Of a stretch of DNA of 64,000 nucleotides, positions 35,633 to 57,193 are shown one piece after another. The stretch is taken from NCBI GenBank assembly GCA_948144175.1, contig CANXME010002122.1, forward strand, positions 186,001 through 250,000. Direction: 5' to 3'. Every line of letters starts with the position of its first letter. Position 1 is the stretch's first letter. The position numbers and the translations under genes were made by a program. The DNA comes from Closterium sp. NIES-65 (Eukaryota; Streptophyta; Zygnematophyceae; Desmidiales; Closteriaceae). The notes beneath the pieces were generated by a model, which was not told the DNA's origin, did not search any database, and saw only the letters and a list, made by a program, of their open reading frames with translations.

Positions 35633-36720
35633 AGGGTGGAGGTCAGATGCTGTAGTCTTTCTTGATGTTAGCAAGACTGATCTTCTCGAGAGAGCTCTTT
35701 GTCGCGGTGCCTGTCTTCTCTAGATTGGCCAGGTGAAAAGCAGAGATGATGTGTTCTGAGGCAGTCATGAAGCATTTGCCGTGAGCTTTCATGCAGCCGG
35801 CTTGGGTGCATAACCATTCTTCTTTGTTGCTTCCTGTAGAGATCAGAGCAAGAGCGGGATCTTGCAGGAGAGGGAGGATCAGCAACGAGGCCGGCAGAGA
35901 AGCAGCTGCGATCGTCAAGCAGAAGGTTAGTAAATGATAGATTGATAGAAAGCATGAGCGGGTTAGTATTGAGCTAGAACTGAGAGCTGTTACCGTTGAG
36001 CATGTGGGCTTTCCCCAGGGTCATGTTCCATTTCCCTACGTTAGTTTGGAGTTCAGTGACGAAAGCATCATGATACTTATCATAATGTTGACCGCCACAG
36101 AGCGCACAAGTTAGCGAAGGGTAATGGACCATGAGCCTGTTCGCGTTGTCAACGAGGTCAGTGATCGCGTGCAGCCAGTAGTGCTCATCACCAGGGTGAG
36201 CGTAGAACAAGCCTTTGACAGTATTCGTATCCGCACCAGTCACAGGGTGCAGCACGCGGTGGAAATTGGAGCTGTGCATGAAAGTCGTCCGCTTACGTCT
36301 GGTTATTAGGTACGTAGACATCCTCCTTGTAATCATATCCAGCTCCACCGTAGCCGAGACCCCTTTGATGATCACTTCAATGGCTTATGGGTGGAAAGCC
36401 TTCTCCCTCGAGAAAGCCGCATCCTCCATGTGCTTCCAGTGTAGGGTCACCAAATCTCCTTTCAGCCGCTGATACATCACATCCTTGCGTTTCACCACAT
36501 CCGCGTCAGATTCTAGGACGAAGGAGACCTGAAGCCTGCAGAAGCGTTCCTTGGCGAAATATGCAGCTGGTAACTCCTGGAACTTTGTTGAGGGCGTAGA
36601 TGTTTCTAAAGAGAGCTCTGCATTCCACCCCCGCTTAATAAGCATACGAATAGCAAAAATGATGCTTGAAATTTCATTGTCAATGCAAATGGAATGAGCA
36701 GGATAATGGCAGTTGTCGGA
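35633..36720 (-). pseudogene. LINE ORF1, C-terminal part (putative)
   Basis: Two open frames separated by a single TAA near 36380 give NEISSIIFAIRMLIKRGWNAEL, LHWKHMEDAAFSREKAFHP, then AIEVIIKGVSATVELDMI, SNFHRVLHPVTGADTNTVKG and LTCALCGGQHYDKYHDAFV (a Cys/Cys/His/His cluster). A third frame (35643-35918) carries a clear C2H2 finger: CTQAGC, 12 residues, H, 5 residues, H. The position upstream of the endonuclease and the nucleic-acid-binding motifs suggest LINE ORF1, which would coat LINE RNA. I do not recognise the family with certainty; the ORF1 call rests mainly on order and orientation. Confidence 0.5.
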
Positions 36721-36943
36721 AGTACTCGGTATGGCCCCTCTCTCCTGACTCCCCCACTCACCACACCCCTTGGCCTCCACTTGTCTCTTCACGGACTCTT
36801 CCCCCCCCCCCCCCCCCCCCCCCTTTCTCTTTACTCTCTCTAGCTCGTGCCAAAGGGGAGCCTTCCTCGTCCTGACTGCTGTATACTGTGCACCGGGTGG
36901 CAGCGTTCCAGGATGCATTCTCACTTGCCCCCTCTGGAGCAGA

Positions 36944-37320
36944 CTAGGGCTCCTGCTGGTTCTGATCCAGATCGCTCAAACTCTTGCACCGCGCCCTTGC
37001 TGTGTTGGTGGTGTGGTCCTGGACCCTCCTGCCCAACTGATTTTCCAGCACCACCACTCCAGACTCTCGGACCTCTACCACTTTCCAGCGCTCCTCGCTG
37101 AGGCCCCGGTCCAACGTGTGCCGCCGTGCCGTCTTGCGATACACTTCCTGCCCTTCCTGCAGCTGCCTACCACTTGCTGGCCTCTGGCCCCCGAGCCGCT
37201 GCTGGTACCGACGCGCATCTCGCAGCTGAGCCACATGAAGATTCTCTAAAGCTGAAGGCAGAAGCGCTCGTAGGTAATCCCCCTTGGCCTTCGCCAGTGC
37301 TGCCCACAACTCTGGGTACC
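36944..37320 (-). pseudogene. Gypsy integrase C-terminal tail, frameshifted
   Basis: After ILPVGAPKVLTDVV the pol frame goes wrong, ending at 37246. A second frame, 36944-37309, picks up with LWAALAKAKGDYLRALLP and continues LRDARRYQQR, QEGQEVYRK, SEERWKVVEVRESGVVVLENQLGRRVQD, the expected gypsy integrase C-terminal (GPY/F-like) region. A single-base indel near 37320 explains the break. The tail ends at 36944. This is the only frameshift seen in the element. Confidence 0.85.
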
Positions 37321-39894
37321 TGCTGTCACCACGTCAGTCAGCACTTTGGGCGCCCCTACTGGCAGGATCGGCTCTCTGCCATAGAGCAGATAGTAAGGGG
37401 ACAGATCTCGCAGCGCAGCCTGCTTGCTGAACCGGTACCCCGCCGCAACCCAGTGCAGATCCTCATCCCAGCTACACTTGTGGGCCTCTCCATATGCCCG
37501 CAGCCCTCGCTTGAGTGTCTGCACCATCCGCTCTGTGAGGCCATCCGCTTGCGGATGATACCGGGAGGTCCTTCTGTGTGTGATCCCGATGGCAGCCAGC
37601 GCCTTATCAAACTCTCCCCGAAACTCCGTGCCCTGATCCGTGAGCACTTCTCCACATTCCCCCATCCTGGTGAGCACTTGCTCCGTGAAGGCCTCCGTGA
37701 CTAGTGCCGCGCTCTTACTGCTCAGCGCGCGCACCTCCACCCATTTGCTGACATGCTCTATCATGACCAGAATGTACCGCTTGCCTCGCCGGCTGAGAGG
37801 CAATTCCCCCGCCAAATCCAAGGACCATCTGTAGCCCAACCCACGGATGGGGAGCGACTGTAGCTGTTGCTGGCTCTTCTCCAACTGGGCCTTGTTGCGG
37901 TCACAAGCCTCGCATTGCGCCACCCGTTCCTTAATCTGTCGCGCCATGCCTGCCCACCACCAGCCCGTGTTGACCAACTGGGTTGTCCTGACGTGCCCAA
38001 AGTGCCCCAACTGCCGGTGCACCCTGTCAATGATGCCTTCGCGATCCGCTGGCGCAGGCACTAGCTTCCATCCCTCTCTAGTCCTCAGCTGTACCTGCCT
38101 CGCATACCACCTGTAGTGCTGTCCCCTTGCCCGTGCTCTCTCTGAGGCAGGCTCCTCTGCCTCCGTCTCTCCCAGCAACCATCTGAGAGTTTCTTCATCT
38201 TGCCATATGTCGGCCGCTCCGCGTAGCTCCTGACGCTGCTCCCCCTGCTTTTCTGCTTCTCTTGCCAGAGCCATGAGCCCGGTCACTCGCTCTGCCGCAG
38301 GCGGGTTGCGCGATAGCCCATCCACGTGCTGCAACGCTCTGCCTGGCCTGTGCTTCACCACGAAATCGAACTCCTGCAACCGCATGGCCCACCGTGCGTT
38401 ACGGCCTGTTAGCGTGCGATTCGTCATCAGCCACAGCAGCGGCTGGTGGTCTGTCACCAGTGTGAACTCGCGCCCTTGCAGGTACACTCGGAAGTGCGTC
38501 ACCGCCCAGACCGCCGCCAACCCTTCTCCCTCGTAGGAGCTGTAGTTTGCCTCCGCGGCGTTGCAACTGCGACTCGCAAAGGCCACCACCCTCTCCCCCT
38601 GCTCAGTTTGTTGGCTGAGCACTGCTCCCATGCCTGCACTGCTCCAGTCAGTGTAGAGCACGAACCTGGCCCCTGGCATCGGCAGCAGAAGCACCGGTCC
38701 CGACTTCACGGCTTCCAGCAGGTCCCGTAGTGCCCCCTGCTCGGCCTCTCCCCATTTCCAGGCTACGTCTTCTCGCAGCAGCTTATTTAACGGAGCCGCC
38801 CGCCTACTGAAATTCGGCACGAACTTCCGGTAGTAGTTCAGGAAGCCCAGAATTGCTCTCAGTGCGGAGCGACCACTAGGGGTGGCCAGGTTGTCCAGCA
38901 CCGCAACCTTCGCCTGCTGAATGGTCATCTGGCCTCCACCCACTTCAAAGCCCAGATACCGCACCGAATTCGTGCCGAAACGGCACTTCTTGGGATGGCA
39001 TGTGAGTCCGGCACCGTGGATGGCCTCCAAGACCTGCCGCACATCCTTCACGTGCTGCTCGGGCGTAGCGCTGAACACTACTACATCGTCTATGTAACAG
39101 GCCGCGCAGTGCTGCAACGCGCGCAACACCCGGTCCATCGCCTTTTGGAACACTGCCGACGCATTCCTTAGTCCAAAAGGCATGAACAACCACTCGTATA
39201 GTCCGTCCGGCCCATGAAACGCTGTCTTCCTCACATCCGCCTCCTTGATTCGTATCTGATTAAATCCCTGGCGGAGATCCAGCGTGCTGAAAATCACTGC
39301 CCCCTGCAGCTTATCGAATATCTCCTCCGGTGTGGGCATGGGATAGCGATTCGCCACCGTCAGCTTGTTGAGGTCCCTATAGTCGCCGCACATGCGTCGA
39401 GACAGCACTTCCCCTGTAAGTTCCCTTCTCGCAGCCACCACGGTGGCCGCCGCGTACTCCGACTCAGAGGGCCTGATGAGTCCTGCCTCCAGCAACTCCC
39501 GGCACTTCTCTTGGCACAGCTCAAGATCCCCTGGGCTCATGCGGCGCTTGCGCTGGTACACCGGCATCTCCTCCGTCAGCCGAATCTCCATCTCTCCCCC
39601 GTTGTACTTGCCGAGCTCCTGCAGGGTGAAGGCAAATGCCTGTCGGAGCCTTTTCAACACGTTCCCCATCTGCTCCTGCAGGTTTCCCTTCAATCCCTCT
39701 CCTATTTCCCATGCTCCTTCCTCTTCTGCCGCTGGTCGGACTGCCGCTGTGCTCCCCCCTTCTTCTATCTCGGCTTCAGGTTCCGACCCCGCCCCTGGCT
39801 CTCGCTGCCCCGTGCTCGTCTCTGCCATCCCAGCCCTGCTTGGTGACACTGGCTCGCCGTCTGCCACTTCTTCTCTTCCTCCCGGCAACACTCC
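37246..39894 (-). CDS. pol: Gypsy pol: reverse transcriptase, RNase H, integrase
   Basis: This frame of about 881 residues follows a TAG in frame with the methyltransferase. There is no nearby ATG; the first codons are GGA GTG TTG, which favours translation as part of a longer polyprotein. Counting from that GTG: RT roughly 110-330 (CGDYRDLNKLTV, STLDLRQGFNQI, FMPFGLRNA, catalytic CYIDDVVVF at 265-273), RNase H (VLYTDWSSAGMGAVLSQ, SSYEGEGLAAVWAV, LVTDHQPLLWL), integrase zinc domain (HRQLGHFGHVRTTQL, QCEACDRNK), and D, D, E core (WSLDLAGELP, VLTDQGTEF, HPQADGLTERMVQTL). All catalytic residues are present. It copies element RNA and integrates the DNA. The C-terminus is lost to a frameshift near 37320. 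Confidence 0.95.
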   Translation of the reverse strand, partial: GVLPGGREEVADGEPVSPSRAGMAETSTGQREPGAGSEPEAEIEEGGSTAAVRPAAEEEGAWEIGEGLKGNLQEQMGNVLKRLRQAFAFTLQELGKYNGGEMEIRLTEEMPVYQRKRRMSPGDLELCQEKCRELLEAGLIRPSESEYAAATVVAARRELTGEVLSRRMCGDYRDLNKLTVANRYPMPTPEEIFDKLQGAVIFSTLDLRQGFNQIRIKEADVRKTAFHGPDGLYEWLFMPFGLRNASAVFQKAMDRVLRALQHCAACYIDDVVVFSATPEQHVKDVRQVLEAIHGAGLTCHPKKCRFGTNSVRYLGFEVGGGQMTIQQAKVAVLDNLATPSGRSALRAILGFLNYYRKFVPNFSRRAAPLNKLLREDVAWKWGEAEQGALRDLLEAVKSGPVLLLPMPGARFVLYTDWSSAGMGAVLSQQTEQGERVVAFASRSCNAAEANYSSYEGEGLAAVWAVTHFRVYLQGREFTLVTDHQPLLWLMTNRTLTGRNARWAMRLQEFDFVVKHRPGRALQHVDGLSRNPPAAERVTGLMALAREAEKQGEQRQELRGAADIWQDEETLRWLLGETEAEEPASERARARGQHYRWYARQVQLRTREGWKLVPAPADREGIIDRVHRQLGHFGHVRTTQLVNTGWWWAGMARQIKERVAQCEACDRNKAQLEKSQQQLQSLPIRGLGYRWSLDLAGELPLSRRGKRYILVMIEHVSKWVEVRALSSKSAALVTEAFTEQVLTRMGECGEVLTDQGTEFRGEFDKALAAIGITHRRTSRYHPQADGLTERMVQTLKRGLRAYGEAHKCSWDEDLHWVAAGYRFSKQAALRDLSPYYLLYGREPILPVGAPKVLTDVVTAGTQSCGQHWRRPRGITYERFCLQL

Positions 39895-39897
39895 CTA
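39895..39897 (-). other. In-frame TAG between methyltransferase and pol
   Basis: The sense sequence is ATG GCG TAG GGA GTG TTG, with the reading frame continuing on both sides. The context TAG GGA G resembles the readthrough signal at the gag-pol junction of murine leukaemia virus, which also depends on a downstream pseudoknot. It could equally be a decayed CAG codon. Confidence 0.6.
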
Positions 39898-41352
39898 CGC
39901 CATCAGAGCCCAGCCTCGCTCTCTCTGCTGCTGCCTTTCCACCCTCAAGTCCAACAGCCGCTGTTCCGCCCTCTGCTGACTGGCGCGCACCTCTTCTGCA
40001 CTTGCATCCCCTGGCCCTCCCACTTCCACTTCCATCTCCAGCTGCTTGGCGACCAGGTGCATCTGTATCACATGCATTAGCCAATGCACCGCCTCCACGT
40101 CCATTGCTCGCCCGAGCGCTTCCCTCCGTCTGACCTCCTCCACTCCTGGTGCTGCCGTGGCGTCAGGGACGAACCCCATCGCCAGTTCACGCTCCCTGGC
40201 CGAGGGCTCTTCCCACTGATCCTTCAGCCGGTCATACACCATGCCTGGGCCCGGCAGCCCTTCGCTCCACACGAAGCCATGGGCTTGATGGTGCGCCATC
40301 AGGGTGGGCCAGGCTTCTCTCGGCAGCCCGGGCTCATTGCACTGGAACTGACTCGGGTGATCCGGCTTTGTCACCGGCGCTGGCTCCCGATGCATCTCCA
40401 GAATATCCTCCACGGGGCGGGGCGAGGGTCGCTCAGTCTGTATGAGCTCCCATCTGAGCCTCCCTTCTGACACTCCATTTTGCCAGTACCGTCTAACCCT
40501 GTGCGCGTACGACCCTTGTTGTACCACATCCCATGCTACTCCTGGTCCCAGCGCTCCCGCCACCACTTCTTGCATTCGACGCACCGGCTCCCTGCAGTCA
40601 GTCGAGAAATCTGGATTCTCTAGGATGTACAAGTACTCCCCGTGCTGCTGGTAAATCAGCTTCATAACCCGCAGTAACTCCGCGAAGAGCGTGGACCGTG
40701 GGTCATCCAATCCTTTGCCCTTCCCAGCCCTCGACACCCCCTGACACTCCCAACCTGCCACCAGCAGATCTACCCGTCCCCATCGTCTTACGTCCTCTGC
40801 CGCCACCTCCCTAATGTCGTAGAGCGATTCTTCTTCCGCCTCCGCTTCTACTCCCAGCATTAGCTGAGTCGGGTAAATCCCTCTTAGCCTCCTTGCGTGG
40901 TTGAAGGCCATCCTGCGCACCACCGGATCTATCTCGACTAGCACCCACTTCTGTACTCTGCACCCTGCTTTTAATGCAGCCGCCAACCCCGTCCCGATTC
41001 CTCCGAACAGCTCAACAATGGTGAGTGGTTCCTGCAGGCGCGTTAAATCTGACAGCCTTGGGGGCAGCGCCAGGGACCGCTCGGTCCCTTCTTCTTCTGC
41101 TTTGCGCGTCTCCTGCTCCAGCACATACTGCTTCCAGGACCAGTCTTCGATCTGCTCTTCCACCTGCGCCATGCGCACTCGAAAGGCTTCCCTCGGCTCG
41201 CGTCTCACGAAGTGCACACGCAGGGTGCCTACGGGCCCATCATTCCTCCAGTACTGCGTCCGGTAAAGGACCTTCTCCTGCCAGGTGCAGATGGTGGCTC
41301 CCACACGATACAACAGCTCCATGCCTATCAGCAGATCAAAATCCTCTGACGG
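39895..41352 (-). CDS. Retrotransposon-borne DNMT3/DRM-like C5 DNA methyltransferase
   Basis: The frame between the two TAG codons has an ATG at 41320-41322 (475 residues). The first residues, with DFDLLIG just before the ATG, complete the protease. The methyltransferase shows motif I VELFGGIGTG (103-112), motif II VLVEIDP (127-133), motif IV LLVAGWECQGVS with Cys193 as likely nucleophile, motif VI YILENPDFS (232-240), motif VIII region YAHRVRRYWQN (272-282) and motif IX-X ERELAMGF plus EALGRAMDVEAV. AHRxRxxWxN and the LLGR-like end resemble DNMT3/DRM enzymes more than DNMT1 or CMT. The Pro of the usual PC pair is Glu here. It would methylate cytosine using S-adenosylmethionine, perhaps on the element's own cDNA. 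A charged helical tail (420-475) links to pol. Confidence 0.92.
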   Translation of the reverse strand, partial: PSEDFDLLIGMELLYRVGATICTWQEKVLYRTQYWRNDGPVGTLRVHFVRREPREAFRVRMAQVEEQIEDWSWKQYVLEQETRKAEEEGTERSLALPPRLSDLTRLQEPLTIVELFGGIGTGLAAALKAGCRVQKWVLVEIDPVVRRMAFNHARRLRGIYPTQLMLGVEAEAEEESLYDIREVAAEDVRRWGRVDLLVAGWECQGVSRAGKGKGLDDPRSTLFAELLRVMKLIYQQHGEYLYILENPDFSTDCREPVRRMQEVVAGALGPGVAWDVVQQGSYAHRVRRYWQNGVSEGRLRWELIQTERPSPRPVEDILEMHREPAPVTKPDHPSQFQCNEPGLPREAWPTLMAHHQAHGFVWSEGLPGPGMVYDRLKDQWEEPSARERELAMGFVPDATAAPGVEEVRRREALGRAMDVEAVHWLMHVIQMHLVAKQLEMEVEVGGPGDASAEEVRASQQRAEQRLLDLRVERQQQRERGWALMA

Positions 41353-41355
41353 CTA
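41353..41355 (-). other. In-frame TAG within the protease, before the methyltransferase
   Basis: The sense sequence is TGC GGC TTA TAG CCG TCA GAG. The frame continues into DFDLLIGMELL, which is the C-terminal strand of a retropepsin, so the stop falls inside the protease domain. That favours a CAG to TAG mutation over programmed readthrough at this site, unless the fold ends differently. Confidence 0.6.
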
Positions 41356-43173
41356 TAAGCCGCAGCGCATTCGGATTCGACACTCGTCCTTGGTGCCCAG
41401 CTGCAGGATCACTTCCACTGGCATGCGGGTGCAGGGCATCCACTTCGGCTCGCCTCCTTCTGCCGTCATCACCAAGATACCTCGTGTAATCAGCCGGCTC
41501 GGCAGGTCCAATTCCAGCCTCTGAGCCAAGCCTTTCCCCAGGAGGATATGATGTGCTCCCGTGTCAATGATGGCTTGCGCCACCGTCACCCCTCCCACCG
41601 TAATCACCCCCTTTTCGATGGTTAGCACCGATGGCTGACACACCATGCGCTCTTTGGGATGCCTTTCCGAAGTCATTTCTTGCTCTGGTTCAGCCGCGTA
41701 CCCCCGGAACCGCCTGACCCTCGGGGCGGGCAGCTCCCTCCTTATTCCTTGATCGCTCCTGAGCCCAATCTCTTCTCGCTGGCGTGGCGCCCGCACCATG
41801 AGCACAAACTCTGCCTCGCTACTCCCCTCCTCCTCCTCTCTTGCCAACATTGCGGACTCCTTGTGGGCCGAACCTTCCAACTCCCTGATCCGTGCTTGCA
41901 GCACCAGCAGCTGCGCCTCCAAGTCCTTCTCGTTTCTGGGACCCGCCGATCCTGGCCTCCGGCTGTAGCAATCCGATGTCCGATGCCCTCGCCGGCCGCA
42001 GTTCTCGCAGGTGGGGACTTCTGGGCACTCCCGTCGCAGGTGCCCTTCCTTCTGGCAGTGATCACACCTTGGCGGCCTGCTGCAGTCCCGCTGTAGATGC
42101 CCCTCCAACCCACACCGATGACACCTGCGCGTCTCTGCCTCCCGCGTGGCACGCCTGCTGGAGGCTTCTCTGGTTGCCACTGCCGCCCAAGCCGACCCCC
42201 GTCGTCCCTCGGCCTGCACACCGCCTCTCTCCATCTCATATAGGCGGAGTCCCAGCTCGTATTTCTTCGCCAGCTCATACGCGTGCTCCAGCGTTGCCGA
42301 TGGTCCCATCTCAAACACCCTTCCCCGGACATCCCCGGCCACCCGCTCGTCCAGGCAGTTGAGGAATTTGGAGACCAGCCTCCACTCGTCCCTGCACTCC
42401 ATATCCGCCGCCAGCTCGCGCAGTCTGCCGTACGTTGCTAGCAGAGATTCTCCCGTCTTTCTCCGGAACGACGCGAACTCCCTCATGCGCTCCGGCGTCT
42501 GTACTGGGAAGTGGCGCTTCAGTGTGTCGAAAAATTGTGCCACTATGTCCCAGGTCACCCCGCTGGCTTGTGCCCGTTCGCTCAGCATGCGCTCTAGCTC
42601 CATGCCATACGCGGTCTCCGCTTCTCCTGTCACGGTGTTCGATAGCCCCCGGAAGAAGTCCTCTGGTTCCAGCCCGTCCTTCATCCAGCGGTACTGCGCG
42701 TTGCGGATCTGCATCATGTAATTCTTCAGACTGCTGCCCACGCCTGGCGTGCCTGCGAACCGCTCGGGCACCTCTACCTTCGGCAGCGCAGCGTACTTTA
42801 CGTTGCCCGGGCGCGCCACCTCCGTCACTTGATGCTCTGACAAGGAGAGACGCCTCAGGCGCCCGAGCAGCTCTCCGTCGGTACCGCCCATTCCTTGCGC
42901 ATTAACCGTGCGCGACGGCGACCCTCCCATGGTGGCTTCCACCAGCGGTCTCCCCGTCGCGCTCTCTCTCGCCTCCCGACCCTCGCTCGGCAGGTCACCC
43001 ATGCTGTGCCTCCGATGCGGAGCCGTGTAGGCTTCCCTGCGGGCGCCGTCGTCCGTCTCGCCCGCCTGCGTCCTACTCTCGCTCCCCGTGACATCTCCTG
43101 CACGCCAGCCTGGCGTCGCCATCGCGGCTTGTTCTGGCGGCCGCTCGTAACGTTTCCCAGACCGAGTCTGCAT
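41353..43173 (-). CDS. gag: Gypsy gag and protease
   Basis: The ATG at 43171-43173 opens MQTRSGKRYERPPEQ and 606 residues follow without a stop. The N-terminal 100 residues are polar and probably disordered. The capsid-like gag domain spans about 120-320 (KVEVPERFAGTPGVG, LEPEDFFRGLSN, WDIVAQFFDTLKRHFP, REFASFRRKTGESLLATYG). Three CCHC zinc knuckles follow: CHRCGLEGHLQRDC, CDHCQKEGHLRREC and CENCGRRGHRTSDC. A coiled-coil-like stretch (NEKDLEAQLLVLQARIREL) precedes the retropepsin with AIIDTGAHHILLGKGLA. The product packages element RNA and cleaves the polyprotein. The frame ends at TAG 41353-41355. Confidence 0.94.
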   Translation of the reverse strand: MQTRSGKRYERPPEQAAMATPGWRAGDVTGSESRTQAGETDDGARREAYTAPHRRHSMGDLPSEGREARESATGRPLVEATMGGSPSRTVNAQGMGGTDGELLGRLRRLSLSEHQVTEVARPGNVKYAALPKVEVPERFAGTPGVGSSLKNYMMQIRNAQYRWMKDGLEPEDFFRGLSNTVTGEAETAYGMELERMLSERAQASGVTWDIVAQFFDTLKRHFPVQTPERMREFASFRRKTGESLLATYGRLRELAADMECRDEWRLVSKFLNCLDERVAGDVRGRVFEMGPSATLEHAYELAKKYELGLRLYEMERGGVQAEGRRGSAWAAVATREASSRRATREAETRRCHRCGLEGHLQRDCSRPPRCDHCQKEGHLRRECPEVPTCENCGRRGHRTSDCYSRRPGSAGPRNEKDLEAQLLVLQARIRELEGSAHKESAMLAREEEEGSSEAEFVLMVRAPRQREEIGLRSDQGIRRELPAPRVRRFRGYAAEPEQEMTSERHPKERMVCQPSVLTIEKGVITVGGVTVAQAIIDTGAHHILLGKGLAQRLELDLPSRLITRGILVMTAEGGEPKWMPCTRMPVEVILQLGTKDECRIRMRCGL

Positions 43174-43800
43174 GCGCTGTCCGAGGCGCTTTCCTCCGGA
43201 GATTTTCTTCGTTGTATGTCAGAAAACCTCCTACCCACTATCGGCTGACAAGCTGGTTCCCTAGCGTGCTCATGACTGCCTGTAAGTGAGTTAACAGGAT
43301 TACATTGGAGCAAACGGGAAACATACAACAAAGCAGTCTACACTAGGGCTTCAGCTTTGCTATGTACAGTCCAACCTTGCTGCCCTAGCCTAGCTGCAGT
43401 CATGCACACAACACATGGGCGAGGCTCGGGGTGCCGAGGCATATTTACAAACCGCAGGCGCTTTGGATCTGCATGGGCTCCAGCACAAGCCCTTCGCCAG
43501 CTGCAAGCTCGGCGTGCATGTTCAACTGCAGCCTTCTGCCACCTGTCGGCTGTGCTGCGCTTATTCGCGTCAACAGCTCCCGCCCTGCACAGGACACAAA
43601 CGAAGTATAAACCCACCCCAACTCATACACCCACCATACTCATGCAAACATTCTTGAGCTTTATTTACAATTATGTACACCCAGTCTTCTTTCCTCCACT
43701 CCTTATGGATTCTGCTCCTGCTGTATCCTCCCACTCTCCCTGCTGCCCACTCTCTGCGCTGTCTCGGTTCATATGTGGCCCTCTTGGCTACATAAACCGC
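43174..43800 (-). other. Gypsy 5' region, LTR not resolved
   Basis: About 630 bp upstream of gag without a supported gene. It should hold the 5' LTR, primer site and leader. I found no copy of the copia-type primer site TGGTATCAGAGC, and no stretch clearly matching the short 3' flank at 36725-36790. Antisense open frames here show no recognisable motifs. Confidence 0.4.
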
Positions 43801-44125
43801 GACACAGTGCGAAGACGACACTCAGCCTCCAGAGACAGTTTCATCTCCATGTCGTCCTCAGAGTCATCAATGAAGCCATCATCATCGATTGGTGAGTTGA
43901 CACTTGTTGCCTTGCCTTTGTCCGCATTTCAGCAGCTTTGTCAGCGACTGTGAGGCCGGAACCACCAGCCAAAGGCTTGTTGTTATTAGCATCTTCAAAG
44001 TTCAAATTGCTCCCCTTGTTCGGCATCAATGCAGGAGCATCCATAATGGTGACACCATTGTCAACCACAGAGGACGCAAAAGGATCAACGACAGCCTTGG
44101 AGCGTGATCCCTTAGGCGGAGCCAT
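43801..44125 (-). pseudogene. LINE ORF1, N-terminal part (putative)
   Basis: ATG at 44123-44125 opens MAPPKGSRSKAVVDPFAS, continuing SGLTVADKAAEMRTKAR. A frame change near 43905 switches from a Met-rich reading to an acidic one (PIDDDGFIDDSEDDMEMKL), which looks the more natural. The gypsy element begins soon after. Position and orientation make it the start of the LINE ORF1 continued at 35633-36720, but no domain is recognisable in this piece. A separate small host gene is possible. Confidence 0.4.
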
Positions 44126-46353
44126 AGCGTGATGCTGAGTGCAGAGCAGAAGAAGAAAAAGAGTTAGATGCTTCTGATGCCTGAACTATAAACGCACCAC
44201 CATTAAATAGCTTGATACTCTTGTCTAGGCCCTTCCGCTTCAGAAGAACATGAAACAAACTCGAGGAGTGAACCTCGGAAGCATAGGCCGTAATATTCTT
44301 GATAGATGCTGGTTGAAATGTAGACTGATTAAACTGTGAAGATCCATGATCTCGAGCTTGACGGACAGATCCCGAGGTAGCCTGACTAACATCTTAAACG
44401 AATGCCTGATAACTAGCGAAGCCGTGATTAGCATAAATGATGGGTCTTCTGGTAGGTGTGTTACAGATGAAGCGATTGGTAAAATCAGATGTTCGATATG
44501 AGACTCCTTGGAAGGACATTGACGGAGTCAAAGGAAGCGAAATCCATGGCGGCCAGCCTGTCATTGTCATTGTCATTATTGTCGTTGTTGTTGATTCGGA
44601 TGTTAGCTTTCACCCGCAATCAATTTCCCTAAGCATCGTTATCACCGTTTCCCTAATTGTCAAAACCCTAATCAACAGACGTTAGATTTGTGCATAGGTT
44701 ATTTTTTCTCTTTTTCCGTCAATCTACATATTTCCCGCTTGTCCGCTTTAAGCGCGTGCTGGTTCGCCCATGTCGTCAGCACTCTAATTGCTCAGCAAGT
44801 TGGTACTCACGTAGTGCGTATTCAGCATCCCCCGCCTTCTCTCCGTCGCCCTTGCATTAAACGGGCCGCGTCACTAGGTTTAGCCGCACACAAGCGACAT
44901 CGCCACCCTTAGGCATCACACGCACATGATGAAATCACTCCGCCTCGTCCTTATGCCACACACTTGGTCCTAGCCATCCCCCATCCTTCACTCGTCTGCC
45001 GCTCCACCCTCACAGCCACTAGTTGCCCCCACGTCCGAACCCTAATCAGCCACGGGCGTTACAAGTGTACTCAGAGCGTCCTAGTTTAGACACTTCGCGG
45101 CCAGAAGGCTCATGCAAGGCTTAACTTTGAGCATACGCACGTAGAACATTGAGGAAGCTTCGTCAACTCATTTGAAAAACAGTAGAAGAAATGAAAAAAG
45201 GAAAAAAAAAAAAAAAAAAAAAACATTCGAACCTTTCCTCCTAAGCTTCTTTCTCCCCACACAGCATCTTCACCCTATCCTTTCAATATCCCCTTGCTAT
45301 TCACCCTCTTACCCTACCCCGATCTACTCCATCCCTTCCCCAATCCCAACCGTCCCCTGGCCCCTTCCCTTGCCACTCTGTATCCCCCTTTACTTCCCAA
45401 TTATGGGAGCCCTTCCACGCAGCTTTCCCTCCCCCATCGCATGTAGCTATTGCCGCTGCCTCGCACTCTCCCCCCATCCTGCATCTGGTCCCCACTCTCC
45501 TGAATGCCCCTCCTCCCTATTCCGAGCTCCCTTGTCCATCCAGCACCCTTGTTCATAGTTCATCCACACCCCATTGCCTCCTCTCTCTCACTTCCCACGC
45601 CTCCCGTTTCCCCTTCCCTACCCACTCTCGCATCGCACTCCCCACTCCCTACCGTCCCTTCCCCCACCTTCCTCCTCACTACCTCCAAGCACTCGACCCA
45701 CTGAGACCAGGCCCTGCTCCCTCCCTGTCCCAGCAATGCATGTATACCTCAACTCTCCCCCACTCATACCTCCCTACCACGACCATGCAACCACCATAGC
45801 CATGCCACGCCGTCTGTGAGGATCTAGGATCGAGCTCAGGAAAGAGAGTTTGAATTGAATGATCCACTTGGGTACAACATGAGGCCATATATGGTCTCGA
45901 CACAAGACCAATTACCCAAGTGTTACGCGAATGTGCTGAGGGTCGCGAAGCGTCCCGAACAGAACCTTTCCGAACTCAGTAGAATGCAATTTGGTGGAAA
46001 CCGAATAGGCTTGAGTTTGGTACACGTAGCCTGGTGGTGCTATAACTATAGTAAAATATAGGAATGCACCTAACCTAGGAAATCAGACATAACTATGCAT
46101 GATAAAATAATCCCATGCTAGTAATAGCATAATAAAGTCCAAGCAAGCTAGCAAAGCTAGCATGAGTCGGCGTACTCTCACACCGTGCCCCCAATAGGGG
46201 AGAGGATGGCCCCAGTTCAACTCGACGCTAAAGCGCGACCCAATGCCGCCTTACCCCTTCCTCTGTTAAGTAAAAACATGTCACCAGCGACCACTCACCC
46301 ACAGGCGATACTGACACTGACCCTAGAGGTAAAACACAAGCCCTAGAAGGGAG
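44126..46353. other. Gene-free stretch
   Basis: No coding region, RNA gene or known repeat family is supported. It contains a 22-base A run at 45202-45223, a long C/T-rich region at 45224-45820 whose open frames are only Pro/Ser/Leu-rich, and an AT-richer part at 46050-46140. Part could be the 5' untranslated region of the LINE. The right end carries the ACAGC target of copia F at 46354-46358. Confidence 0.6.
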
Positions 46354-46358
46354 ACAGC

Positions 46359-46505
46359 TGTCGAACATTATATATGTTGTTGTGCTTGTTTAGGCTACAG
46401 TGGGTTAGCCTATAGGGGGTACACAATTTTAGGGTTAGGAACTTGTACTCTTTTCACTACTAGTTCATCCATTCCTGTTCGTTCATTTCAACATGGTATA
46501 GAGCA
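46359..46505 (+). repeat. Copia F 5' LTR and primer-binding site
   Basis: LTR 46359-46493, starting TGTCGAACATTATATATG and ending TTCAACA; primer site TGGTATAGAGCA at 46494-46505. The TATATATG near the start is a possible promoter element. Confidence 0.95.
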
Positions 46506-47253
46506 GCTCCTTCCTAGGACCGTTTTTTTTAGGGCCCACCACTACCTACCTACCTACCTGCGCCCTAGGGCGCCTCCGTTTTCACAGCCCTCTTAGGCCC
46601 CACGACCCGCGACCCGCCCCTTTGCGACCTGCGAGCCGCCCCTTAAGGCCCTGTCGGCCCACGCGCGTGCCCCTTACGGCCCCACGCTCGCCCCTTTACG
46701 GCCCCGCGCTCGCCCCTAGAGGCCCCGAACGGCCCACGCGCTCGCCCGTAGCGGACCTTGTCCGGCCCGCGATCTCCCCTAATGGCCCCGTCGGCCCCGC
46801 ACTCACCTCCCTAGAGGCCCCTTACGGCCGCGTCGGCCCCGCGCTCACCTCCCTAGAGGCCCCGTCGGCCCCGTGCTCACCTCCCTAGAGGCCCCTTACG
46901 GCCCCGTCGGCCCCGCGCTCACCTCCTTAGAGGCCCCGAACGGCCCCGACGACCCCTAGAGGCCCCGAACGGCCCCGTCGGCCCCTAGATGCCCCTTTAC
47001 GGCCCCGCGCTCGCCTCCCTAGAGGCCCCGAACGGCCTCATCAGCCCCGCGCTCACCGCCCCTAGAGGCCCCGAAGGCCTGTGACCGCCACAACCCAGGA
47101 CCGAACCGAGCCGCCCAGGACCGAAGCGAGCCGCGCGACCCGACCCGAGCCGAATCGAACCGCGCCGCCCTACCCGAGCCGCGCCGCCCTACGTGAAGCG
47201 AGCCGCCCTACCTGCTTCATCCTCCTACTCCTACTGCTACTCCTGCTGCTCCT
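46506..47253 (+). repeat. Copia F leader of GGCCCCG repeats
   Basis: No gene. A tandem array at 46650-47070 is built on units such as CTCACCTCCCTAGAGGCCCC and GGCCCCGTCGGCCCCGCG, then CCGAACCGAGCCGCC-type repeats to 47200. A (TACC)n run sits at 46543-46558. Confidence 0.85.
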
Positions 47254-48690
47254 ATGGCTAGCCCACAGGTGCTATTTTTTGATGCTGAGGGCCGCCCAGT
47301 GAAGTTTGACACTTGGCTAGACAACCTGCACCTCTATCAACAGCTCACAGCCAAGGACGACATCTCACTGTACGACCACGCCCTAGGCCATGTCACTGCC
47401 CTTGCTGCTACTACTGACAGCACTGCCCGCTCGTAGTGGCAGACTCGTGATGCCTACGCTCGCTTCGCTATTCGCAACTCTCTGCCGATAGACAAATGCG
47501 AGCACTTAGGCCAACACAAGACTGCACAAGCACTGTACACAGCTGTCGTTGCTCGCTACTCCTCACCTGCCTCTGCCGCGCTAGGCCGTCTCTCCCTCCC
47601 CTACCTGTTCCCCGACCTGGCCTCGTTCCACAAAGTCGCTGACCTCATCACGCACCTCCGTGCTAGCGAGGCCCGCTTCCGTGCCGCCATGCCTAATGAG
47701 TTGGTGGTGGTGGAGGTGGTGGCGGCGGGGGAGGGGGTGGTGGAGGTGGTGGCGGCGCTTGGGGTGGTGGTGGGACTCGTGGTTCTAGTGGTAGCGGTGG
47801 GGGTGGTGGCGGCAGCGGCGGGGGAGGTGGCAGGGGCGGAGGCGGTGGTGGGGGTGGCGGTGGACGCGGCGACAGCAGGGGTTGGGGTGGTCGAGGAGGT
47901 GGCGGTGGCGATGGTGGTCGTGGAGGCGCTGGCGGTGGCCAGGGCCAGCAGCACACTCCGTCGCCCCAAGAGGTCCGTGAGTGGTATTCTCAACACGGGG
48001 GGGGGGGGGGGGGGGGGGGGGCTGGGGGGCTTTAGCTGCACGTACGTCATTCACACGGGTGACCGCACTGGTCAGGCGTGTGGAGGACCGCACGCCACAC
48101 AGCGCTGCTTCGCTCGTCTCAACGATGCTTGGCGTGTTCACTTCCCTCAGGCCACTGAGCTGCCCCGCTGGATTGATCTCCTGAAGAAGAGGATTGATAT
48201 CTATGCTCTAGACTTTGATGCTTTTCTATCTGCTATGTATGTCATGTCTACTAGTGGAGAGGGTGCTGAGTACCTGTGTGTGCCGCACGACCCGGGCATT
48301 AGGACTAGTGCGTTTGCCGCTCCAGGTACTCGCGTGTCTGCTACCCTAGGTGCTGGTGAGGTAGCTGCTCTAGGTGCTTGTGCGTCTGCCCCCCTTGGTA
48401 TTGAGTCGACTGCAGCACTGCACACCTTCACACTGGACTTAGGTGCTTCTCGCTGCTTCTTTCGTGACCGCACTGCCCTTGAGCCGCTTGCTCAGCCAGT
48501 TGCTGTCTCCCTCGCTGACCCCTCTGGGGGTCCGGTCATTGCGACCTCCTCCACTGTCCTTCCCTGTCGTGCGGTCCCGTTGGGCACACTGTCAGGTCTC
48601 CACCTCCCCACGTTCTCTATGAACCTGGTGGCAAGATGTGCGCTCCAGGACGAGGTGTTCACCAGTTCACCCCTGCCTATGAGCGCGTGA
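47254..48690 (+). pseudogene. Copia F gag and protease
   Basis: ATG at 47254 gives MASPQVLFFDAEGRPVKFDT, the gag start of this lineage. A TAG at 47434-47436 replaces the Gln of RSQWQT. Gag continues DAYARFAIRNSLP, LYTAVVARYSSP, LPYLFPDLASF and DLITHLRASEARFRAAM; the 130 residues up to the helix found at TLTVDLLEK in relatives are missing. The glycine-rich stretch (47700-47940) is read out of frame, and a 25-base G run (47997-48021) restores it. Then come CTYVIHTGDRTGQACGG, HATQRCFARLNDAWR and LPRWIDLLKKRIDIYALD. The protease site is FTLDLGASRCFF (DSG changed to DLG), probably inactive. Confidence 0.88.
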
Positions 48691-50143
48691 CACACTGCAC
48701 GTGTGCTCGTACGGGCCGTCACTTGGCTACCTTCACTTGGCAGCCGGGGTCAGACCTGTACACACTAACCACTGAGTCCCCTCACGTCGCCGAGTCTGCG
48801 TTTGCGTCAGGTAAGCTGTCGACCCCGTGCCCGTGTCGCGTTTCAGGGTCTGGGGATCCCGAGATTTTGTCCGCAATACGTCTCCGGACAAGCTTTCCTC
48901 CTGTGCTATTCCCTGCGCCTTCCTCGGCTTTGTCCAGGACGCGCCTGGTTGGCAGTTTTACCACGCCACCTTGCGCCAAGTCTTGCCCTCTCAGGACGTC
49001 ACTTTTGACGAGTCCGTCCCCTACTACCGCCTCTTCCCCTACCGCACTGCCCCGCTCCCCCCCCCCCGGCCTCTCTTCCTTGCGCGAGGTGCTGCTGTCA
49101 TAGACCCCCTCCCTCCTCAGGGTGCTGCCCCCTTAGGTGTGTCTCAGGTAGACCTGGTTGAGCCTGTTGAGGTAGCTGTCGACTCTCGTCCTGCTGCGGG
49201 TGCGGAGCTTAGGGGTCCGGAGTCTGTGGGTGCGGAGCCTGGGGGTGCGGAGCCTTGGGGAGCTGAGCCTGGGAGTGCTGATCGTGGGGGTGCGGAGCCT
49301 TGGGGTGCAGAGCTTGGGGGTACTGAGCCTGGGGGTACTAAGCCTGGGGGTGCTGAGCTGCAAAGTCAGGGGTCTGGGGGTTCTGAGTCTGGTGGTGCTG
49401 AGCCTCGTAGTCCTACACGCGGAGGAGCACTCTCCTCGGAGCAGCTGCGTGAGTGGTACTTACAGTACTGTAGCCTTAGGAGAGGTACGTCTAGAGCCAC
49501 GCGTACTACTGAGACTGGTGCTAGTGCTTCTCCTCCTAGTCGGGAGCTCCCCTCCCGTGAGCAAATCCGTGAGTGGTACGAGCGGCGCTGCACTCTTCGG
49601 AGTGGTGCGCCTCGTATTGCGGACCCCGCTGCTGCTGCTGGTGCTACTGATGCTGGTGGCTCTAGTGGTGCTACTGGTGCTGCGGCCATAGAGGTTGGAG
49701 CTGCTCCTGGTACTGCGGACCCAGGCGTTGGAGCTGCTGCTGGTGCTGAGGACCCGGGCGTTGGAGCTGCTGCTGGTGCAGAGGACCTAGGCATTGGAGC
49801 TGCGGCTGGTGCTGAGGACCCAGACGTTGGTGCTGCTACTGGTGCTGAGGACCTTGACGTTGTAGCTGCGGCTGGTGCTGAGGACCCGGGCGTTGGAGCT
49901 GCGGCAGGTGCTGAGGACCCGGACGCTGGTGATGCTGCTGGTGCTGAGGACCCGGGTGTTGGAGCTGCTGCTGGTGCTGAGGACCCGGGAGTTGGAGCTG
50001 CTTCTTTTGCTGAGCACCCTGGTTCTGGAGTCGTTAAACGATCGCGGCCGTACTTCGTTCCACTCCTTCTACAGGTTCTTGGTCAGCTCCCTCCTCCTTG
50101 TCCTCCTCCCTCCTTAGGGTGTCCTCCATCTGTACGGCTGTAG
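48691..50143 (+). pseudogene. Copia F integrase remnant and 33-bp-repeat linker
   Basis: After CARTGRHLATFTWQPG and KLSTPCPCR the sequence jumps to FRVWGSRDFVRNTSPDKLSS: the zinc domain and D,D,E core, about 240 residues, are deleted. The tail FLGFVQDAPGWQFYHATLRQ and PYYRLFPYRTAP leads in frame (48827-50143, 438 residues) into the linker. This has GAEPGGAEPWG-type 15-bp repeats (49200-49360), QQLREWY and EQIREWYERR blocks, and about nine copies of a 33-bp unit coding for GVGAAAGAEDP (49720-50010), then RPYFVPLLLQVLGQLPPP. Confidence 0.88.
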
Positions 50144-50369
50144 TTGCAGCTACCGTCTGCCTCCTCTGTCCTTGGTCCTACTCCTTAGACTGGTCCGACT
50201 GGAGGTCTTACTGAGCGTCATGAGCCTGAGTCTCATCCTGCGTCGCGTGAGTCTCGTCGTGCGTTGCCTGTCAGTGCTGCTCTCACTGGTAGTCGTGTCC
50301 CACGTCAGCGTCTTCTTGCTGTCCTAGGCACTCACCGGATGGCGCTTTGTCCCTCCACTGCTTCACGGC

Positions 50370-51884
50370 GTGTCCCAGCGCTTTGTCCCTCCACTGCCGT
50401 CTCCTCCTGCGTCCTCTCCTCCTGCTCTTGCTGACCTGGGGTTAGACTCCCTTCGTGCGGCCAGTCCTGCTGTCACGTGTCTCCTAGCTACTGTTGTCAC
50501 TGTCCCTTCCTTTGAGTCTGCTGCTGCGTCTGCCTTAGTTGCTGAGCTTGTTGACTTTGCTGCCATGTGTCGTCTAGACTACGTCGCTAGCCTGGTTGCT
50601 GAGTCGGAGTCTGTCTGTCCTCCGTCCGTCAGGGGTGAGTGTGCTCTTGGCAGTGACGTCCTTGAGCACATGCAGGAGGAGTTTGAGTGCTTTGCTGCTG
50701 CTTTGCCCCATCTCGTGTCCATGCTTGTTGCCACGGAGGGAGACCCGGATGCACCAAACATCCAGACCCCACGGTCTTACGTAGAGGCGATGGCCAGTCC
50801 CTACTCCTCTCAGTGGCAGTCAGCCATGGACACAGAGATGGCTTCCTAGAAGTCCACAGGCACCTACGTCGACGAGGTTCCCCCGCCTGGGGCGAATATC
50901 GTCAGTGGCATGTGGATTTTCAGGGTGAAGCAGCTGCCCGGCTCTCCGCCTGTCTTCAAGACGCGTTACGTTACACGAGGCTTCAGTCAGCGAGAGGGAG
51001 TTGACTTCTTCCAGACCTTCTCCCCGACCCCGAAGATGACCAATCGTTGGGTTTGTGCTGCACGTCGCCGCTCAGCGTGACTACGAGCTTCACTCTCTTC
51101 ACTCCAGCACTGCGTTCCTGCAGGGCAGCTTGCACGAGGGGATCTGGCTGCGCCGCCCACTGGCTTCAGTGAGTTGTTTCCTCCTGGTACCCAGTAGAGC
51201 CTCAGGCGGCTAGTCTACGGTCTCCGCCAGGCGCCCCGTGAGTGGCATGACACACTAAGGACTACACTTGCGGCTCTTGGGTTTGCTCCTTCTACATCCG
51301 ACCTGTCGCTATTTCTGCGCACCGACACCTCTTTGCCGCTGTTCTACATCCTTGTGTACGTCGACGACTTCGTCTTTGCCACTGCTGACGCTGCTGCACT
51401 CGCCCACGTGAAGTTAGAGTTGCAGAAGAGACACACGTGCACAGACGTGGGTGAATTGTCAAGCTATCTTGGCTTGCGGATCACCCGGGACAGAGCACGC
51501 CGCACCATCACCTTGACTAAGTCATAGATGGTGCAGCAGGTCCTTTAGCACTTCGGCTTCACGTACTCCTCGCATCAGCCCACTCCTCTGCCTATCGGTC
51601 ACTCGCTCTCAGCTCTGCCTTCAGATGAATTCGTAGAGCCGAGTGGCCCGTATCCAAAGCTTGTGGGTTGCCTCATGTACTTGATGACCTGCACTCGACC
51701 TGACCTTGCATACCCTCTTAGCATTCGTGCACGCTATGTCGCTCCCAGCCATCACTGGAAGGAGCACATGGATGCAGCTAAGAGGGTGTTGCGCGACTTG
51801 TGCAGTACGTCGGGCATGGGGCTAGTGCTTGGAGGGCGAGTCCCAGTTGTTCTCACTGGGCACTTAGACGCTTCTTGGGCAGAC
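50370..51884 (+). pseudogene. Copia F pre-RT module and reverse transcriptase
   Basis: The frame 50370-50849 holds the conserved module: LPSPPASSPPALADLG, SALVAELVDFAAMCRLDYVAS, CPPSVRGECALGSDVLE, EEFECFAAALPHLVSML and TPRSYVEAMASPYSSQW. A TAG at 50847-50849 replaces Trp of MASWKST. RT follows with a damaged stretch (51040-51200) and then RQAPREWHDT, ILVYVDDFVFA (catalytic pair intact), LGLRITRDRARRTITLTKS with a TAG, a second TAG before HFGF, and YLMTCTRPDLAYPLS, ending with GHLDASWADK at 51890, where RNase H homology breaks off. Confidence 0.9.
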
Positions 51885-52940
51885 AAGTGGAGTGGACTTG
51901 AGAGGGATCAAGCGTGAACGCGGACTGGGGAGTGTCAACGGGAGTTTTGTGATGGCCCCGTCCACGCTTGGGCGGAGCCGACTTCGTGGTCGGGTGTGAA
52001 GGGAGCAGCCGACCTGCAGCAGTGGGCGAGCGGGTCGACGAGGAGGTCGACTTGCACGGTGACCACTGCACGGGCGCCGACTTTGAGGTGGCGCCAACTT
52101 TGGGGAGGTCGACCTAAGCGTCGACCTGCGGAGGACGTCAACTTGATGACGTCGACTTGGAAGCCGACTTCGGTGGTCGGCTGATGTGCTGGTCAACCTG
52201 CGGGTGGTCGACTAGACCCGGTGGTCGACGAAGGAGGGGCCGGCGTCGAGCAGTCGGTCGTCGAGAAGTCGGGCGTCGAGCGACATGGTCGTCGACCGAG
52301 GGGCATGGTCGACCCGGTGAGGTCGACAACGAGGTGGTCGTCGACTTGGGAGGTCGACGGACACGTACGGGAGTTGCTGGTCGATGTGGTTGCCCGGTCG
52401 ACCAGGTTACCTGGGTGACGAAGTGCTGCGGAGGTATGCAATGGTCGCCCAGGCGAAGTTGGCGAGACCGACCTCGGTTATGGTATCCCGAGGTCGTCGT
52501 GGCAGATCAGAGGCAGCTGTCAGCCCGTGGCTGACATGGTGTGTGTGCTGTGCAGGTGATGAGGCTCGGCATACCAATCATCTGCACGCACCTGCAAAGC
52601 GGGTGCACTGCTGGCACACCGTCGACCTGCAGCGTTGGCAAGCTGTCGACTTTGCACTGCTGGAGCGCGGTCGACCAAGTCGTGTTGGAACGCGGTCGAC
52701 CATGCTATGCTGGCAGTTGACCAACCTGAGTGCTAGCTCTGATGTAGTCTTGCATTGCCAACTTCATTGGATCATTGTTGTGATCTTTTCTTAGTGAAAC
52801 TCTTGCCAAATTGCCCCATGAATTGGCAAGGAGTGTGAGCACTAGGAAAACGTGTCTAAGGACCAACGAACGTAGAGATCACACGAGCACACGTGCCTAG
52901 CCAGTAGTCTAGCTCCCGTTGTAGTAGTTATCTCCGCAGC
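51885..52940. other. GTCGAC-dense block replacing RNase H
   Basis: Copia homology stops after ASWADK and resumes at QQHRDQLRLRYVASE. The 1.05 kb between is unrelated and takes the place of roughly 160 RNase H codons. From 52020 to 52700 it contains 17 copies of GTCGAC, about one per 40 bp, many more than chance. No convincing protein is coded. At 52736-52743 GCTCTGAT is the complement of ATCAGAGC, the core of a copia primer site on the minus strand, so the right part (52744-52936) may be an LTR fragment and the repeats its leader. Confidence 0.7.
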
Positions 52941-53068
52941 AGCATCGTGATCAGCTTCGTCTGCGTTACGTGGCCTCTGAGGGTAACACTGCTGATGTCT
53001 TCACCAAGGCACTTCAGCCTTGTGACCATCAGCGCTTTTGCACTCTTCTAGGCCTTGTGCCTACTTGA
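52941..53068 (+). pseudogene. Copia F RNase H C-terminus
   Basis: QLRLRYVASEGNTADVFTKAL, then CDHQRFCTLLGLVPT and a stop at 53066-53068. This is the standard end of the copia polyprotein, separated from the rest by the foreign block. The following 53069-53312 is 3' untranslated DNA. Confidence 0.9.
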
Positions 53069-53324
53069 CCTCACTTGCTTACTTCGTGAGTCTGTTTGTA
53101 CTGTGATCTCTATATACATATACCTGCATGTTTACTCTTGCTAGGCTGTGATCATTGTACCTCTTGTTCTATTATAAATCTGCATGTGAACTAGACTTGT
53201 GACCTCCTTCTTGTGCGCGGAATTTGTGTGGTATCCTTGAGATCCACCCTGAGCTTGTTCTGCCTTGCTTTGCCTTAACTCGTCTTGTGACCCCCTATTC
53301 TCCCCCACTTCGCCTATGGGGGTG

Positions 53325-53459
53325 TGTCAAACATTATATATGTTGTTGTGCTTGTTTAGGCTACAGTGGGTTAGCCTATAGGGGGTACACAATTCTAGGG
53401 TTAGGTACTTGTAGTGTTTTCACTGCTAGTTCATCCATTCCTGTTCGTTCATTTCAACA
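53325..53459 (+). repeat. Copia F 3' LTR
   Basis: 135 bp, preceded by the purine-rich tract CGCCTATGGGGGTG and followed by ACAGC at 53460-53464. Confidence 0.95.
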
Positions 53460-53886: not shown

Positions 53887-54160
53887 TGGATAGCCTAGGT
53901 TGTTTCGCATTCCTTTGTATTTCCTATATAAACTCGACGTATTCATGCTCTTATCATCTCACTCATTTACATTCACTTACATCTAAGGTCAACACCTTTG
54001 CTGTAACAAAGTATCTGCTTAAACCTTAGATGATCCTTTGCTAACTTCCTTTTAGGATTGTAACATGGTTTGAACACCACTCAAGAATTCGTTGCAATTC
54101 TACTACCGAAAAATTTCGCCGAACCAAAACCTGGTGAGCGGCACACGCTCCAAGACCAAG

Positions 54161-54961
54161 ATGACCAGAGGATCCAGATGCCAAATAAATCTAACGGGTG
54201 AAGGACAAACCAACCCGGCTGCGACAAATGAGGTGACAACTATGACCAGTACCACTGCACTCGAGGTGCGGTATCAACAATTGTCAACCGTGGAGAAAGA
54301 CCTCAAAGCAGTGCAGAAAGAAGACGCGGGAACCTCCTTGCAACTAGCACAGCCTGCTCAACCTGCTGCAAACGGCTATGATATCGACCCGCACATCTTC
54401 TCCCTAAACTCAAACAAATCAACACCAAAATCCCTCGGCCAAGTGATGAAGTTATTAAATATGCGCAAGCACACTTCTTCAACGTTTCAAAGATCAAGAC
54501 AAATACCGCGTTTGACGGCAAGAACTTTCATACATGGAGTTTTGAGCTAGAGCTCCCCCTATAGATATCGCACATCTACCATTACTTCGACGACTCCTAC
54601 CCTAAATCGGCTGAAGACACCAAAGACGCCCGAGCTCAGTACTACAGCGAGTCCCCCATGGCGTACAGTGTGCTGCTAAGAAACATGACGCCTGCGGAGC
54701 AACTCGGCATCCGCTCCTACAAAGAGCGCCCCGCTCCAGCCTTGGAAGCCTAGAAGCACCTCACTGAGGTATATCAGCCGAACGACTCAGTCACCTCCAG
54801 CAGGCTCCTAAAGCAACTCATGGAGACCAAGATGGGGCACAGGGAGAAAGCGAATCCGTTAATTGATCGCTGTCGGAACATCCGTGATCAAATCACAAAG
54901 CATGGAAGCGCGATATTGGAGGAAATCTTCGTCAACAGCATGCTCCAAGGAGCCCTTTAAG
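54161..54961 (+). pseudogene. Copia-type gag, copy 1
   Basis: The first ATG in a plausible context is 54161 (MTRGSRCQINLTGEG). After SLNSNKSTPKS a frame change near 54440 is needed to read VIKYAQAHFFNVSKI, TNTAFDGKNFHTWSFELEL, YPKSAEDTKDARAQYYSES, LLRNMTPAEQLGIRSY, HLTEVYQPND, SRLLKQLMETKMGH and SAILEEIFVNSMLQGAL. These match the UBN2-type gag of copia elements. Two in-frame TAGs lie after ELPL and after ALEA (the second where Trp is expected). Gag stops at 54959-54961, followed not by pol but by GC-rich repeats. It is a relic from a family different from copia A-F. Confidence 0.8.
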
Positions 54962-56919: not shown

Positions 56920-57193
56920 TGGATAGCCTAGGTTGTTTCGCATTCCTTTGTATTTCCTATGTAAACTCGACGTATTCATGCTCTTATCATCTCACTCATT
57001 TACATTCACTTACATCTAAGGTCAACACCTTTGCTGTAACAAAGTATCTGCTTAAACCTTAGACGATCCTTTGCTAACTTCCTTTTAGGATTGTAACATG
57101 GTTTGAACACCACTCAAGAATTCGTTGCAATTCTACTACCGAAAAATTTCGCCGAACCAAAACCTGGTGAGCGGCACACGCTCCAAGACCAAG

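Follow-up and report, generated by a model that had tools for sequence, protein, structure and literature searches.

On the minus strand of the window, by which we mean the whole 64-kb stretch of DNA that was analysed, lies a Ty3/gypsy element whose gag-protease, methyltransferase (MTase) and reverse transcriptase (RT)-RNase H-integrase open reading frames (ORFs) fall into one common frame in the ORF map. Its features are as follows:

41353..43173, minus strand: ORF 1 (606 aa), encoding gag and the N-terminal part of an aspartyl protease (IDTGA), with its stop at 41353-41355
about 41968-42123, minus strand: three CCHC zinc knuckles in ORF 1 (Pfam zf-CCHC, three stretches)
41311..41601, minus strand: aspartyl protease domain, split by the stop at 41353-41355 (profile matches with X at the stop); its C-terminal part opens the 475-aa ORF
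39895..41322, minus strand: 475-aa ORF, encoding the protease C-terminus, a C5 methyltransferase domain and a C-terminal helical tail, with its stop at 39895-39897
40048..41031, minus strand: C5 cytosine methyltransferase catalytic domain, ORF residues about 98-425
40744..40746, minus strand: codon of Cys193, the presumed catalytic nucleophile, in a motif IV that reads ECQ rather than PCQ
37246..39891, minus strand: 881-aa ORF encoding RT-RNase H-integrase (Pfam and match to Ty3)
about 38941-39396, minus strand: reverse transcriptase (Pfam RVT_1) in the 881-aa ORF
about 38368-38754, minus strand: RNase H (Pfam RT_RNaseH) in the 881-aa ORF
about 37888-38049, minus strand: integrase zinc-binding domain (Pfam Integrase_H2C2) in the 881-aa ORF
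about 37552-37833, minus strand: integrase core (Pfam rve) in the 881-aa ORF
36944..37309, minus strand: 121-aa ORF, in a different frame from the other three; candidate integrase C-terminal tail

The succession of protease, RT, RNase H and integrase is the pol order of a Ty3/gypsy LTR retrotransposon, and the best match of the 881-aa ORF is yeast Ty3 Gag-Pol (PDB 7q5b; 2.7e-84, residues 128-841), with foamy-virus integrase also matching (8.8e-15). No chromodomain was detected in the element ORFs by Pfam at E values up to 1. Since the 121-aa ORF has no Pfam match above the cut-off, the sole offering being Globin at 0.18, we can only infer that it represents the integrase C-terminal tail past a frame change. 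The first-pass annotation had placed a C5 methyltransferase in frame within the polyprotein of a Ty3/gypsy element, after the protease and ahead of RT, and the common frame, the Pfam matches, the protease profiles and the match to Ty3 all bear this out: the element is real and correctly placed, its polyprotein includes a C5 methyltransferase domain, and the copy is damaged.

The 475-residue region gave a significant match to the DNA_methylase profile (PF00145; 4.2e-9, 36.7 bits against a curated cut-off of 22), the best stretch of which spans residues 163-221 only; this score, together with the catalytic cysteine in motif IV, places it in the family. The ORF, first given as 39895-41352, actually covers 39895-41322; its length of 475 aa was correct, but the catalytic domain occupies only about residues 98-425, and the start of the ORF is the C-terminus of the protease. 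On ORF 1, Asp_protease_2 scored 24.2 bits, marginally below its cut-off of 24.3; when the protease was read with an X at the stop, the score was 26.0 bits (1.5e-5; cut-off 24.3). In the same reading gag-asp_proteas aligned over positions 4-90 of 92, spanning the stop, at 3.2e-5 and 24.9 bits, short of its 28.2-bit cut-off. As this profile crosses the stop into the 475-aa ORF, the ATG of that ORF is probably not a genuine start, to judge from the sequence.

The chance of 476 codons free of stops is about 8e-9, assuming independent bases of this composition. Third-position GC is 0.73 in gag-protease, 0.68 in the MTase and 0.70 in RT-integrase, near-equal values which fit the MTase being a long-standing part of the element. 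Synonymous codon use sets it slightly apart, as the correlations of the MTase with gag (r of 0.76) and with RT-integrase (0.71) are lower than that between gag and RT-integrase (0.85). These figures bear on the idea of a one-off chimera, in which methyltransferase sequence landed in a single copy and is no trait of the family. The element is indeed known here from one copy; however, the domain is in frame with both protease and RT, a continuity that a chance insertion would seldom preserve on both sides, neither a flanking duplicate nor an intact methyltransferase gene structure is present, and third-position GC is like that of the rest. We regard such a chimera as very improbable.

This copy had been described as having a complete layout, which it does not: the protease is interrupted by an in-frame stop (41353-41355), a second in-frame stop lies just past the MTase (39895-39897), the integrase frame shifts between about 37250 and 37330, and there is no detectable LTR pair. 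On account of the two stops and the frame change the copy is counted as broken, and is inactive. Four computations found no LTR pair in the window, and the element may have lost its ends or been truncated there; the sequences 43174-44200 and 36300-36943 have no exact 10-mers in common, about one being expected. The best match between the wider flanks (79 columns, 67%, about 45564-45640 against 36761-36838, E 9e-5) was considered as a terminal repeat and rejected, being taken for low-complexity sequence that adjoins a run of 23 G. Nothing except this one weak, low-complexity-like match links the flanks in the manner of a DIRS-like repeat layout. The G run itself (36801-36823, minus strand) is situated about 0.12 kb past the last ORF of the element, in purine-rich surroundings, and could be either a simple repeat or a polypurine tract.

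The element sits in a 10.7-kb gap between stretches, reaching to 35610 and starting again from 46359, that match the other copia-like repeats of the window; neither Rfam matches nor tRNAs were found in the 64 kb. Two minus-strand ORFs with no Pfam match (36385-36924 and 35974-36375) lie immediately downstream. Gene-like sequence is present on both sides, and the element may be inside another gene or element. Copia-like stretches are numerous at 1171-35610 and 46359-53459, in both orientations and with about 71-95% identity; the ORF at 33636-34802 matches RVT_2 (1.8e-48), and that at 7548-8390 on the minus strand matches RVT_1 (1.9e-26) and is LINE-like by reading. This mixture of copia, LINE-like and gypsy elements, together with the high GC, would suit a plant or algal host, and the copia polyproteins may resemble those of streptophyte algae. 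Further along the window are two pairs of direct repeats. The first, of 2182 bp (53887-56058 and 56920-59101; 98.6% identity, about 0.86 kb apart), may have arisen by recent duplication or may represent LTRs flanking a non-autonomous element. The second, of 551 bp (60384-60934 and 63079-63629; 97.1%), encloses two ORFs, one a copia-type gag (61066-62049) and the other with Pol_BBD (62059-63006), leaving no room for RT or integrase; the whole resembles a copia element that is young and non-autonomous.

The motifs of the MTase follow the conventional order, with I ahead of IV, VI, VIII and X, and were compared with those of 39 aligned viral C5 relatives. Motifs I, II, IV, VI, VIII and X, all of which had been recognised at first reading, align with the viral enzymes, whereas motif IX, also claimed then, is not clearly resolved. 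Cys193, already put forward as the candidate nucleophile, aligns with a cysteine in all 39 relatives, and Gln194, Glu235, Asn236, Arg275 and Arg277 are equally invariant. The catalytic motif is as unusual as it had been said to be: in place of the canonical PCQ and ENV, the query has ECQ and ENP. Glu192, directly before the catalytic cysteine, is found in none of the 39, every one of which has proline, and Pro237 in motif VI is likewise absent from all 39, which uniformly have valine. His274 is scarce among them (2 of 39), and Arg405 of motif X stands where 37 of the 39 have asparagine and DNMT3A has LGR. The DNMT3A, 3B and 3C chains have PCN in motif IV, against ECQ here; the glutamine after the cysteine and the DPRS after motif IV are those of the viral enzymes, the DNMT3 chains having asparagine and EGTG.

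Going by the residues, Glu192 and Pro237 may mean that activity has been lost or changed. A domain that is catalytically dead or altered, and is either a DNA- or RNA-binding module or a passenger, would accord with these two substitutions, each without parallel in the 39 relatives. Also consistent with this are the structure model of the 475-aa ORF, confidence in which is low at residues 316-354, the expected site of the target-recognition part, and the KnitGypsy domain, which is reported in PMC5890265 to have shown no activity in yeast. Against it, Cys193, the Glu-Asn of motif VI and the arginine pair of motif VIII are retained, and the frame is open although the rest of the copy is damaged; we consider loss or alteration of catalysis distinctly unlikely.

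Searches by sequence return a wide range of C5 enzymes. The PDB matches of the MTase are DNMT3C (9.2e-6), DNMT3A and 3B (about 2e-5), HhaI (1.2e-3) and DRM2 (0.083); in PHROGs, phrog_116 (2e-21) and phrog_363 (9.7e-14) match, and the NCBIfam dcm model scores 36.8 bits, far under its cut-off of 100.65. Matches by tblastn were found in 285 phage records, the best among the matches listed being Morganella phage Henu15 (3e-13), and 51 plasmid records encode matching enzymes, with scores of up to 72 bits. Scanning viral_contigs with an alignment (A1) gave at least 600 stretches, at least 463 of them encoding relatives; among the best 80 of these at least 463, which were retained, the top ORF reaches 82 bits and 32% identity over 185 columns. 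Three of the viral contigs have two close C5 methyltransferase ORFs each (L015 3001-4842, L029 2950-5061 and L048 2995-6461). Used as single sequences, the MTase and the RT-integrase ORF found no relative in viral_contigs, and a scan of genome_contigs with the MTase gave 15 stretches containing a single relative, from Mycoplasmopsis agassizii (29% over residues 100-236). In pairwise comparison with the query the 39 viral relatives have a median of 71 bits, against 48 for DNMT3A, 44 for HhaI and 42 for HaeIII. Scored against a profile built from these 39 viral sequences, the query reaches 72 bits, DNMT3A 144, HhaI 134 and HaeIII 133; with the lowest value, the query diverges furthest among the four. 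Pairwise scores thus bring it closer to the viral enzymes than to DNMT3A, yet in the profile comparison it is the outlier.

The ranking of folds similar to the predicted structure of the MTase leans towards DNMT3: all 50 of the Foldseek matches listed are DNMT3 entries, and the VIA list is also topped by DNMT3. DRM is not among the matches listed (50 rows, Foldseek and VIA), an absence that proves nothing. A tree of 50 sequences (the query, DNMT3A, 3B and 3C, HhaI, HaeIII and 44 viral enzymes; 251 columns, LG+I+G4) groups the query with DNMT3 at an SH-aLRT of 39.7 and a bootstrap of 67, with long branches and DNMT3 represented by mammals only; when HhaI, HaeIII and two divergent phages are removed the values are 51.7 and 93. 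The viral branch nearest to both DNMT3 and the query is L027 (3001-3876), a viral-contig C5 methyltransferase with the same motif VIII AHR as DNMT3 and the query. With full searches the AU test rejects none of four constrained alternatives (p of 0.45, 0.31, 0.50 and 0.39), the constraint joining the query to L027 having p of 0.50. An earlier AU test on trees from fast searches had excluded both the grouping of DNMT3 with L027 (p 0.0002, in the fast search only) and that of the query with L027 (p 0.03); these exclusions are poorly founded, because there even a tree constrained in agreement with the best one came out 29 log units worse.

The domain had been assigned to the DNMT3/DRM class. In DRM enzymes the motif order is rearranged. 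Membership of DRM was rejected on the conventional order found here, and DRM2 matches by sequence at only 0.083; the DRM rearrangement is mentioned in PMC5890265. The AHR of motif VIII was likewise discarded as a mark of eukaryotic DNMT3, because L027, alone among the 44 viral sequences of the tree set, has it too. What stands of the assignment is a DNMT3-like character, which is partly supported, being favoured by the ranking of predicted folds and by the AHR and LGR details of the motifs; it is weakened by a sequence nearer to viral enzymes and a weak tree. The domain appears to belong to a broad C5 set in which many viral enzymes stand beside DNMT3; among eukaryotic sources, DNMT3 is the likeliest.

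Alternatively, a C5 enzyme of phage, giant-virus or bacterial origin could have supplied the domain, in a capture separate from those of DNMT3 in Klebsormidium and dinoflagellates, the likeness to DNMT3 then reflecting convergence or deep common descent. The best sequence matches are of this kind (the viral-contig ORF at 82 bits, phrog_116, Henu15 and a plasmid enzyme at 72 bits, against 48 for DNMT3A), and the CQ and the DPRS past motif IV are in the viral style, as opposed to the CN and EGTG of DNMT3 chains. However, no close donor was seen, identity being at most about 32% in the best 80 of at least 463 viral_contigs relatives, and genome_contigs gave just one match, at 29%; DNMT3 comes first by fold ranking, and the tree weakly favours a sister relationship with DNMT3, represented there by mammalian and not by algal or plant sequences. 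Such an origin is a possible if unlikely one.

In working copies of the element, the polyprotein would consist of gag, protease, C5 methyltransferase, RT, RNase H and integrase. The methyltransferase would be made within Gag-Pol, packed into the virus-like particle and then freed by the protease; the likeliest step to follow would be de novo methylation of cytosines in cDNA newly made from the element itself, ahead of integration, such that the methylated cDNA would resemble the methylated host genome. Taken as a whole, the explanation of an inactive Ty3/gypsy copy with a C5 methyltransferase in its polyprotein, acting on cDNA and most likely derived from DNMT3 among eukaryotic sources, is one that we hold to be reasonably probable. 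The points against it are the single broken copy, in which no terminal repeats were found, the somewhat separate codon use of the MTase, Glu192 and Pro237, the divergence of the domain and the inconclusive inactivity of KnitGypsy in yeast. It is improbable, in our judgement, that a non-DNMT3 C5 enzyme, perhaps viral or from a phage, was captured independently, that its loop changed to Glu-Cys-Gln, and that it works in the particle with an altered choice of targets, perhaps RNA-DNA hybrids or single-stranded cDNA, for instance.

Methylation is a means by which many hosts silence transposons, and for that reason an element with its own methyltransferase is informative on the conflict between host and transposon. 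If the host lineage differs, this would be a second Ty3/gypsy case beyond the Klebsormidium set, implying either that a single capture spread widely or that capture happened more than once. Motif IV, being unusual, offers a test of which residues near the catalytic cysteine are dispensable.

Several known systems can be set beside this element. Yeast Ty3 Gag-Pol is alike in RT, RNase H and integrase, and is not known to have a methyltransferase between protease and RT. The phage and viral C5 enzymes (phrog_116 and phrog_363; IMG/VR L007-L086) are the nearest by sequence in the data searched and have the same motif order, but are stand-alone, share about 22-32% identity with the query, and have PCQ, ENV and GNG where it has ECQ, ENP and GRA. 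An orchid Ty3/gypsy element with an m6A RNA demethylase domain (PMC9289625) has similarly acquired a nucleic-acid-modification domain, although one acting as an RNA demethylase and not as a DNA methyltransferase.

Closer parallels come from algae. The precedent named in the first-pass annotation, de Mendoza et al. (2018; PMC5890265), was correct. In Symbiodinium, SymbioDIRS-Dnmt3 and SymbioLINE-Dnmt are also retrotransposons that bear a C5 methyltransferase, encoded in SymbioDIRS in one ORF with the RT; two SymbioDIRS-Dnmt3 enzymes perform de novo CG methylation in yeast, and self-methylation of cDNA is what those authors proposed for SymbioDIRS. These are DIRS (tyrosine recombinase) or LINE elements, unlike the present one with its Ty3-type DDE integrase. 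The closest case there is KnitGypsy-Dnmt3 of Klebsormidium nitens, an LTR Gypsy element whose Pol ORF contains Dnmt3 domains. It resembles our element, by description rather than by sequence comparison, in its LTR Gypsy domains, in the C5 methyltransferase inside Pol, and in a domain that is intronless and divergent from ordinary DNMT3; it differs in having DIRS-like repeats (according to the legend of Fig. 4) and several copies, against one broken copy with no terminal repeat found here. The KnitGypsy-Dnmt3 domain is under purifying selection (Ka/Ks below 0.2) and gave no methylation in yeast, a result its authors call inconclusive. PMC12344493 confirms retrotransposon-embedded DNMT3 in streptophytes and dinoflagellates, giving the LTR class as Copia, against Gypsy in PMC5890265. 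Among the literature matches listed, from a scope that excluded most subscription journals and all bioRxiv preprints, no other gypsy element was described as bearing a C5 methyltransferase. Since such hybrids have already been described in a green alga, the element introduces no new principle: the combination of gypsy and Dnmt3 in Pol is known from K. nitens (PMC5890265), and the present element adds one more case, a rather divergent one whose motif IV is unusual.
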